A stretch of 64,000 bases of DNA from Sutcliffiella horikoshii (GTDB lineage: Bacteria; Bacillota; Bacilli; Bacillales; Bacillaceae_I), in assembly GCF_019931755.1 (NCBI RefSeq), contig NZ_CP082918.1, positions 3,886,001-3,950,000 on the forward strand, read 5' to 3'. Both the position numbers and the translations under genes were made by a program. This document shows, piece by piece, positions 19,074 to 38,038 of the stretch. The stretch's first letter is position 1. Each line of letters begins with the position of its first letter. The notes beneath the pieces are model-generated. The model saw nothing but the letters and a program-made list of their open reading frames with translations. It did not search any database and had not been told where the DNA came from.

Positions 19074-20696
19074 ATGAATATAAAACAACAATTCTCATTA
19101 TTTTTTGAACAGATGGCCGATATGGTCTTTTTGGTAGAGTGGAAAAGGAACGATCTATGGTACACCAGTGTAAACCCTTCTGCTCAACAGAAGCTTGGTA
19201 TTGAAATGGTAGGCAGACGCTTGGTAGATGTTCTCCCTCAATCCGTTTTTACCTTACTGGACGAAAATTATACAAAATGCATAGAGTCAAAGCAGTCTGT
19301 AACATACTCAGATTTAAACTTATTTGTGAGTGATCTTCCTGCCTCCGAAACAAGCCTCACATATATTGAGGATGACGGAAAAACATTTGTACTGGCTATT
19401 ACCAAAGATATAAGTGACTTAAAAAAGAAGGCAGAGGATTATATTTTCCTAGAATCGTTGGTGGCAAATACAGTGGATGCCATGCTTGTCATCGACACGA
19501 ACGGAATAGTCTTGAAAGTGAATGAAGCCTTTGTCCAACAATTCGGCTGGAGTTCATTCGAACTAATAGGACAATCCTGGGAATCATTCCCCAATACTCC
19601 AAAAGGATTGAAAACGCAAACATTGGTTACGCTGTCCCTTCTAAAGAAAGGTCAGTCCGTTCCTTCCCAAGAGACTGTAAGGCTTACAAAAGAAGGAATG
19701 TCCATACATACTTCTGTTAGCTATTCTCCTATCCTGAATGAAGAAAACAATGTTGTCGCCATTTCCATGATCTATCGCAATATCCAGCATCTAAAAGAGC
19801 TCGAAGAAAAATTAGAAGAAAGCCATGACGCCTATAAATCATTGTTCTCCTATCATAAAAATGCCGTTTGTATGGTAAATGAAGATGGGATTATTGAAAA
19901 TTTCAATGAAGCTTGTTTAACTATTACTGGTTTTCCAAGCGAAGTCATCATGGGATTTAATATTGTGGAGTACGCAAAAAAGGCCGTGCCTGATCTTGAC
20001 TTGGATAAGACTAACCGCGGCGAGGTTACAAACTATGAGTTATTATTCCCCGATTCTAAGGGACATGACCTTTACTTATCCGTTACGAATGTCCCTATTA
20101 TCGTAAAAGGCATTGTAAAAGGTACATATATCATTGCACAAGACATAACGGAAAAAAGAATCATTGAAAAAGAAAGAGAAAAGTTGCAAGAACAACTTAC
20201 TTTTCAAGCCTATCATGATAGCCTTACAGAGCTTCCGAATAGAAGGTTACTTGAAGAAAAACTGGAAGAATCCCTTGAAGATGCGGAAAAAAATGAACGC
20301 ATTCTTGCTTTGTTTTTCTTAGATTGCGACCATTTAAAAGAAGTAAACGATACTTACGGACACGAAGTTGGAGACGAACTGCTTATTGCATTCTCCAGAA
20401 GATTAGTGATGTCTGTAAGAGAAGGCGATATTGTTGCAAGATTAGGCGGAGATGAATTTGTGATCTTGCTTCACGGCATTGAGGAAATGTCACAGGTCGA
20501 TAGGGTTGCCGAACGAATCCTAACAGCCTTAGGAAAGCCGTATACTATTCACCGCCACAAGATTCACGCCACCTCATCCATCGGGATCTCCACCTACCCG
20601 GCCAACGGAACAACTGTTCAACAACTCTTCCGCCAAGCCGACCAAGCCCTCTACACCGTCAAAAATGCCGGCCGCAACGGCTACCGAATAAGTTGA
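19074..20696 (+). CDS. PAS-domain diguanylate cyclase (GGDEF)
   Basis: 540 residues from the ATG at 19074, which has TAGGAG at good spacing; an in-frame ATG at 19035 is also possible. Three PAS-like modules are visible: about residues 10-105, 120-240 (DAMLVIDTNGIVLKVNEAFVQQFGW) and 255-370 (AVCMVNEDGIIENFNEACLTITGF). A short coiled linker leads to the GGDEF domain (DSLTELPNRRLLEEKL) with the active-site motif RLGGDEFVILL near residue 458. All the residues expected for c-di-GMP synthesis are kept. No EAL domain and no membrane segment are present, so it is a soluble sensor-cyclase. A c-di-GMP-I riboswitch lies at 37607. Confidence 0.93.
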   Translation: MNIKQQFSLFFEQMADMVFLVEWKRNDLWYTSVNPSAQQKLGIEMVGRRLVDVLPQSVFTLLDENYTKCIESKQSVTYSDLNLFVSDLPASETSLTYIEDDGKTFVLAITKDISDLKKKAEDYIFLESLVANTVDAMLVIDTNGIVLKVNEAFVQQFGWSSFELIGQSWESFPNTPKGLKTQTLVTLSLLKKGQSVPSQETVRLTKEGMSIHTSVSYSPILNEENNVVAISMIYRNIQHLKELEEKLEESHDAYKSLFSYHKNAVCMVNEDGIIENFNEACLTITGFPSEVIMGFNIVEYAKKAVPDLDLDKTNRGEVTNYELLFPDSKGHDLYLSVTNVPIIVKGIVKGTYIIAQDITEKRIIEKEREKLQEQLTFQAYHDSLTELPNRRLLEEKLEESLEDAEKNERILALFFLDCDHLKEVNDTYGHEVGDELLIAFSRRLVMSVREGDIVARLGGDEFVILLHGIEEMSQVDRVAERILTALGKPYTIHRHKIHATSSIGISTYPANGTTVQQLFRQADQALYTVKNAGRNGYRIS

Positions 20697-37526: not shown

Positions 37527-37595
37527 ACTCAACCTAAACACACCTAAAGTCCTATGTCTTTACACCCTCTAAAAGACTACAATTAAAGGGTACTT

Positions 37596-37740
37596 CTCAT
37601 AAATCATGGAAAAAGGCAAACCTAGTGAAAGCTAGTGACGCAAAACTATAGGGACTTAAGTATGCTTTTTAAACGGCATAGCAGTTAGCCAGTTACCCGC
37701 ATCAACCTCCGTTGATTTATGAGTGAAAAGGAGGTCCTGC
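37596..37740 (+). ncRNA. Cyclic di-GMP-I (GEMM-I) riboswitch with expression platform
   Basis: The aptamer (about 37607-37700) has the family signatures in order: GGCAAACC, a helix CTAGT closed by a GAAA tetraloop, the invariant GACGCAAA, GGGAC-TTAAG resembling the tetraloop receptor, a TATGC/GCATA helix, and AGTTAGCCAGTTACC at the 3' end. An 11-bp perfect outer helix CTCATAAATCA (37596-37606) with TGATTTATGAG (37713-37723) encloses it. The hairpin ATCAAC-CTCC-GTTGAT (37701-37716) competes with that helix, and its loop CCTCC can also pair with GGAGG at 37730. There is no T-run, so translational control of the next ORF is likely. Ligand binding is inferred from the family. Confidence 0.85.
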
Positions 37741-37741
37741 T

Positions 37742-37909
37742 ATGAAGAGGGTAAAAAACTTACAGTACTTCTGGCACAATATGAGATCGAACTATTACAC
37801 TGTCATTGCTGAAGATTGTTTGGACAAGAACGTGAAGAAGCAACTGGTGGAAAAAGCTGAATCTCATAAGCTAGTAGCAATTCAATGCAGAACAAAAATC
37901 AAGATTTAA
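37742..37909 (+). CDS. 55-residue hypothetical protein under c-di-GMP riboswitch
   Basis: An ATG follows AAAAGGAGG at ideal spacing, giving 55 residues beginning MKRVKNLQYFWHNMRSNYY and ending in a basic stretch RTKIKI. It is basic, probably helical (NVKKQLVEKAESHKLVAIQ), and has no signal peptide or membrane segment. I do not recognise the family. Its ribosome-binding site sits just 3' of the riboswitch outer helix and a terminator follows 50 nt after the stop, so riboswitch, ORF and terminator form a complete unit. A role downstream of c-di-GMP (motility, matrix, sporulation) is plausible but unproven. Confidence 0.75.
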   Translation: MKRVKNLQYFWHNMRSNYYTVIAEDCLDKNVKKQLVEKAESHKLVAIQCRTKIKI

Positions 37910-37955
37910 CTTGTTAGATCTTGATAGACAACTAAGATGAACAGAAAGACGAAAA

Positions 37956-37990
37956 AGAAGAGGCCTCATGTTACTGGGCCTCTTTGTTTT
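37956..37990 (+). terminator. Terminator after the 55-residue ORF
   Basis: AAGAGGCC and GGCCTCTT form a stem with an 11-nt loop, followed by TGTTTT on the plus strand. Confidence 0.75.
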
Positions 37991-38038
37991 GAAGGGACAG
38001 GCACCGTGACCCATGTGGGTCGAGGTGCCTGTCCCTTC
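37991..38038. repeat. GGGACAGGCACC palindromic repeat, family 2
   Basis: GAAGGGACAGGCACC (37991-38005) is perfectly complementary to GGTGCCTGTCCCTTC (38024-38038), with an inner GACCCA/TGGGTC pair. One arm plus GTGACCC recurs at 63718. It lies between convergent genes. Confidence 0.8.

Follow-up and report, generated by a model that had tools for sequence, protein, structure and literature searches.

The locus lies on the plus strand of a 64-kb stretch of the Sutcliffiella horikoshii genome, hereafter the window, and comprises a structured leader, a short open reading frame (ORF) and a terminator-like hairpin. A c-di-GMP-I (GEMM-I) riboswitch aptamer occupies positions 37605 to 37700. It matches RF01051 over model positions 1-87 with 57.1 bits against a gathering threshold of 35 (E 1.6e-8), in agreement with the GEMM-I assignment of the initial sequence-only reading, and RF01051 is the only Rfam family above its gathering threshold in the entire window. 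In the RF01051 alignment, the window aptamer shows both the GNRA-capped P2 and the conserved junction (GGCAAA..GACGCAAA). Across an alignment of 37 related leaders, the junction pairs are paired in 37/37 and P2 in 97.7%, and the ligand-contact G of GGCAAA, which we take to be position G20, is a G in the window and invariant throughout. Variants of the class that recognize c-AMP-GMP carry an A at aptamer position 20. Judged by these features, the riboswitch is a further member of the known class RF01051 with a well-conserved, putatively translational platform, and we infer that its aptamer binds c-di-GMP. Seven GGDEF matches were found in the genome; the best of them (E 1.4e-51) is a domain at 20208-20678 of the window, roughly 17 kb before the riboswitch.

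The aptamer is enclosed by two 11-nt arms, CTCATAAATCA at 37596-37606 and TGATTTATGAG at 37713-37723. They are exact reverse complements and form the perfect 11-bp outer helix (an extension of P1) that had been described before. The arm word occurs in the window at these two places only, where 0.13 occurrences would be expected. Downstream of the 3' arm lies the Shine-Dalgarno (SD) sequence GGAGGU (37730-37735), which precedes the ATG (37742) by 7 nt and is conserved in related leaders. The 7-nt spacing originally given for the 3' arm has to be corrected, since the arm ends 2 nt before AAAAGGAGG and 6 nt before GGAGG. The proposed pairing between CCTCC and GGAGG is borne out by an anti-SD sequence, ACCUCC (37705-37710), which is complementary to GGAGGU and, in the minimum-energy fold computed without constraints, pairs with it. 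As a whole, the window leader is no more stable than its shuffled versions (z -0.01). Upstream of the 5' arm, the sequence TACAAT (37578-37583) is possibly the -10 box of a leader promoter, and GACTACAAT is found upstream in 11 leaders (L003-L013); a promoter scan gave no plus-strand site.

We saw no terminator in the stretch that separates aptamer and ORF. Behind the ORF, a G+C-rich terminator-like hairpin (GAGGCC/GGCCTC) followed by a T-run is located at 37960-37990, consistent with the suggestion that the gene has its own terminator. A terminator scan returned none; with 11 nt, the loop of this hairpin exceeds the 8-nt limit of the scan. Directly past the hairpin, a palindromic repeat (GAAGGGACAGGCACC...) occupies 37991-38038. 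Its 19-nt arm was found at 34 places in the genome with at most two mismatches (reversed control: 0), 25 of which fall in the section of contig C1 from about 484 to 640 kb.

The ORF at 37742-37909 encodes a basic protein of 55 amino acids. By its substitution pattern it is a real gene under purifying selection, because dN/dS is 0.11-0.29 against nine orthologues (three further pairs are saturated in dS). In a search of 61 genomes, 14 of the 16 that belong to the genus had a close copy (at least 48% identity, the window included), and the remaining two contained distant relatives only. In each of these 14 Sutcliffiella orthologues, the window again counted, an Rfam-confirmed aptamer immediately precedes the gene, and its GGCAAA lies 119-128 nt ahead of the start codon. 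Neither outcome that would have contradicted the sequence-only reading, a missing covariance-model hit or a lack of conservation of the ORF behind the aptamer, was seen. For the window protein, modeled with ten orthologues, AlphaFold predicts a helical hairpin with helices at residues 2-24 and 29-54 (mean pLDDT 95.0). The family comprises proteins of about 40-60 aa. In an alignment of 21 relatives (A1), Y18, C26, D28, K32 and H42 are invariant; with 50 relatives (A4), H42 is the sole invariant residue and H12 and C26 are conserved at 90% or more. The A1 profile matches 92/397 sampled genomes of the order, representing 33/135 genera, and the A4 profile matches 14/299 genomes sampled from the class, some of them shared with the order-level set.

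The sequence-only reading had called the family of this ORF unknown, and the curated libraries searched agree with it. Neither the single protein nor the A1 and A4 alignments had a significant match in Pfam or NCBIfam; A4 had none in PHROGs, and A1 had none among PDB chains at an E value of 1 or better. Stray matches of single members reached best E values of 0.0042 (Pfam), 0.014 (NCBIfam) and 0.0036 (PHROGs). A Foldseek search against the PDB gave no hit at 0.001 or better. Its best hit, at E 0.6, would be an encapsulated-ferritin-like helical hairpin, a type of structure that weakly resembles many unrelated ones; what we take to be the diiron ligands of that fold are not conserved here, and we rejected this candidate. 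A distant relation to SinI, the SinR antagonist (PF08671), was also discarded, given no SinI match among the 21 and 50 members and an hhalign probability of 0.3%. A metal site formed by H12, C26 and H42 would be at odds with the AlphaFold model, which places C26 in the turn, away from both histidines along the hairpin. Plasmid records yielded one weak protein match, a hypothetical protein of Rossellomorea whose surrounding 12-kb stretch has no Rfam match, and phage records searched with one paralogue yielded none. Nor did we recognize the family as described in the open-licence PMC literature. Both the small-protein family and its recurrent link to the riboswitch seem to be unrecognized.

To quantify this link, we collected 120 distinct members from 84 genomes and 35 genera, leaving out about two dozen weaker matches from the order-level sample. 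An aptamer is located within 350 nt upstream of 55 of the 120 members, in 54 genomes and 21 of the 35 genera, so that homologues do follow GEMM-I aptamers; outside Sutcliffiella, this holds for 41 of 92 members. Fifty of these 55 aptamers carry the motif GGCAAA..GACGCAA within 250 nt, one lies at 316 nt (L080, confirmed by Rfam), and four were identified by Rfam alone (L077, L084, L093, L112). Among the motif-positive loci, 20/20 were confirmed by Rfam in one batch and others were confirmed as well, with L117, L118, L119 and L141 relying on motif and alignment. The 65 members counted as having no aptamer within 350 nt lie at loci that lack the motif and were also scanned with Rfam, or at copies of such loci. 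RF01051 occurs in 351/397 sampled genomes of the order. Because there are only few copies per genome, we estimate the chance of finding an aptamer before a given gene at roughly one in a thousand. At one locus (L085, 13395-15828 of its contig), three family members are arranged in tandem, two of them each with their own c-di-GMP-I aptamer.

On a tree of 111 members, presence and absence of the aptamer require 16 state changes, compared to a mean of 37.2 for shuffled states, and at least 8 changes are forced by well-supported branches; this tree, built from 55 columns with unsettled bootstrap values, does not separate gains from losses. The link to the riboswitch has accordingly been gained or lost repeatedly. 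The aptamer-less paralogues of Sutcliffiella (L026-L032, L020, L063-L067) share an upstream motif, GTTAnA-N13-GGGTAT, which resembles what we assume to be the consensus of sigma-B promoters and could possibly represent a stress input to the same protein family. Since 65 of 120 members have no aptamer and the Sutcliffiella paralogues among them carry this motif, the family appears to serve more than one input. Three leaders (L092, that of the third member at L078, and L102) keep 3' parts of the platform (CUCC, arm and SD) without a recognizable full aptamer, and that of L092 additionally retains the 3' end of the aptamer. They are possibly remnants of riboswitches.

We compared the leaders in two alignments of 48 and 37 sequences (the latter A5). 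L083 and L091, which have no clear outer helix, were left out of both, and L076 and L082, for which a start codon too far downstream had been assumed, were left out of A5. Both alignments show one shared architecture of 5' arm (of the CATAAATCG or UCGUACGA type), aptamer, CUCC, 3' arm and AGGAGG-type SD. In A5, the structure consisting of outer helix, P2 and two junction pairs is paired in 90.6% of cells, compared to 28.3-42.8% when slid, and 0/500 shuffles reached this value. The outer helix alone is paired in 84.8% of cells, with two-sided changes in 7/11 pairs; these outer-helix figures are conservative, because UCGUACGA-type leaders, whose pairing is offset in register, were counted as partly unpaired. 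An outer helix of at least 8 bp together with an anti-SD pairing of at least 4 bp is possible in 28/39 leaders but only in 127/1560 shuffles. The alternative pairings proposed to govern the ribosome-binding site are thus conserved, the outer helix with covariation.

A further hairpin was postulated to compete with these folds and to expose CCTCC. It is present in the window leader as ATCAAC-CUCC-GUUGAU, and a stem of at least 4 bp with the anti-SD in its loop was found in 27/50 leaders vs 290/2000 shuffles, the 50 leaders including L076, L082, L083 and L091. By group, it occurs in 14/14 leaders within the genus and 13/36 outside. The conservation of this hairpin stands, if less firmly than that of the outer helix; it may either expose CCTCC or hide it, and may represent a third state.

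The direction of switching was addressed by constrained partition functions for the same 50 leaders. Without ligand, the blocked fold is favored in 39/50 leaders, and 11/50 are predicted to be open or balanced. The difference between blocked and open folds amounts to +1.3 kcal/mol for the window, with a median of about +2.2 and a range from -6.8 to +15.0. A ligand that stabilizes P1 would tip such leaders open, and we read this as an ON switch. A geometric argument points in the same direction: the 3' arm sits in the loop of the anti-SD:SD hairpin and close to the SD, so this hairpin and the outer helix could hardly coexist. In our model, a c-di-GMP-I riboswitch and the gene behind it form a stand-alone unit. 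At low c-di-GMP, ACCUCC (37705-37710) would pair with GGAGGU and keep the ribosome off, with the 3' arm held in the hairpin loop. Binding of c-di-GMP would stabilize the P1 junction, and the outer helix between 37596-37606 and 37713-37723 would form. This would remove the 3' arm and compete with the anti-SD:SD hairpin, such that the ribosome-binding site becomes accessible and the small protein can be translated. Provided that the leader switches at all, we are rather confident that c-di-GMP turns translation ON.

The same leader could work the other way round. If the ligand-stabilized outer helix crowded the SD, or freed the anti-SD in a loop, expression would be permitted at low c-di-GMP. 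The short distance between 3' arm and SD (0-10 nt in 38/50 leaders) would fit such an OFF switch, as would the local hairpin that carries the anti-SD in its loop and recurs in 27/50 leaders. But the conserved position of the 3' arm within the anti-SD:SD loop implies that the outer helix competes with the block, and the SD stays unpaired when the outer helix is formed. We therefore consider an OFF switch unlikely. Even less probable, in our view, is a non-functional or ligand-blind riboswitch, in which the aptamer binds and expression is set elsewhere. There is a precedent in Bc1 of Bacillus thuringiensis, a conserved c-di-GMP-I aptamer that reportedly binds its ligand while exerting hardly any regulation (PMC11218506), and the nearly balanced folds would agree with it. 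The covariation of the outer helix and the conservation of the platform across many genera argue against a leader of this kind.

With regard to the function of the protein, the riboswitch of the window has a counterpart in the same genome. The genome (4.5 Mb) contains one further c-di-GMP-I aptamer, at 3686001-3686104 of contig C1 (L001:1501-1604) and hence outside the window. It precedes the gene for a 46-aa SinI (PF08671, E 4.5e-9), which is followed directly by a gene for a SinR-like regulator (HTH_3 and SinI domains). In the genus, there are 39 c-di-GMP-I places, 14 of which belong to the family of the 55-aa protein. From the other 25, 21 were read: 16 precede a SinI-like ORF and 5 other genes. 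A SinI-like ORF behind an aptamer is present once per genome in 16/16 genomes of the genus, with the Pfam assignment made in the window genome.

A relation to exopolysaccharides is suggested by the surroundings of family members in other genera. At one locus (L173), the aptamer and the member are followed on the same strand by a Wzz-like, a tyrosine-kinase-like, two YwqE-like and one GtaB-like gene, and at L171 and L172 an aptamer-less member lies inside a polysaccharide-like cluster; these gene names are presumptive and based on likeness, and Pfam was applied to a kinase-like piece (AAA_31) and to a nucleotidyl transferase. We compared 18-kb regions around members from other genera with regions hand-picked in the same genomes as controls, using markers taken from such loci: 17/40 family regions vs 1/20 control regions contain exopolysaccharide markers (Fisher p 0.0026). 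Excluding the six regions that had supplied markers, the ratio is 11/34 vs 1/20 (p 0.02), and several of these 11 regions count through just one weak match. The remaining 23/40 family regions have no marker. In Sutcliffiella itself, the window gene included, exopolysaccharide genes are absent from the vicinity.

This last result, together with the sigma-B-like GTTAnA-N13-GGGTAT motif of the aptamer-less Sutcliffiella paralogues, would also fit a small protein that is no matrix factor but regulates more generally, e.g., in motility, stress or sporulation, with inputs differing between lineages and an incidental proximity to polysaccharide genes. We regard this as a real possibility, if one with less than even chances. 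Against it speak the excess of markers in family regions, the one-strand run of polysaccharide-like genes headed by aptamer and member at L173, and sinI as sister target. A small matrix regulator remains the likeliest role that we would assign to the window protein. More tentatively, and without wishing to press the point, this widespread helical-hairpin family of the Bacilli might be an output module of c-di-GMP-I riboswitches, made at high c-di-GMP and directly switching exopolysaccharide synthesis, e.g., by binding the Wzz/tyrosine-kinase machinery or its repressor. Aptamer, ON platform and ORF would then form a cassette, with the riboswitch repeatedly acquired, lost or replaced by other promoters.

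Taken together, the product of the locus would be a basic two-helix hairpin of an unrecognized family that recurrently uses such a leader, acting as a small regulator or accessory of exopolysaccharide and matrix production in the sessile state, in parallel to SinI. As a whole, we hold this combination of an ON riboswitch gene and a matrix-related small protein to be moderately probable: the aptamer, the alternative pairings and their conservation, the purifying selection acting on the ORF and the association with the family were derived from sequence comparisons, while ligand binding, ON direction and the role of the protein are what we would predict from them. The overall interpretation of the sequence-only reading is supported, the protein being a presumptive effector. 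To our knowledge, c-di-GMP has few known protein outputs in Bacilli. A conserved family behind aptamers in 21/35 genera offers a concrete and testable one, and a reason to annotate these nameless genes. Together with sinI, it points to an action of c-di-GMP on the matrix via small proteins under riboswitch control.

Several known systems resemble the one described here. The sinI riboswitch of the same genome is likewise a c-di-GMP-I target that encodes a small protein (46 aa), although SinI and the window protein are different proteins by profile comparison (probability 0.3%). The link between aptamer and sinI is shared with Bacillus methanolicus, for which a c-di-GMP riboswitch before sinI plus two targets of unknown function have been reported (PMC4342826). 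Bc1 and Bc2 of B. thuringiensis, a Bacillus relative, belong to the same c-di-GMP-I class; Bc1 is located before other genes and acts via terminators, whereas translational control is predicted for the window leader (PMC11218506). Translational control by anti-SD and SD has itself been described for the class (PMC11218506). We found no description of the platform paired with this family in the open-licence PMC literature searched. The window aptamer resembles other members of RF01051 in scoring above gathering over the full model and in its location in a 5' leader. It differs in its target, a 55-aa protein without a name that belongs to a family found repeatedly behind the aptamer. The riboswitch class itself is already known; the notable part is the unrecognized small-protein family.
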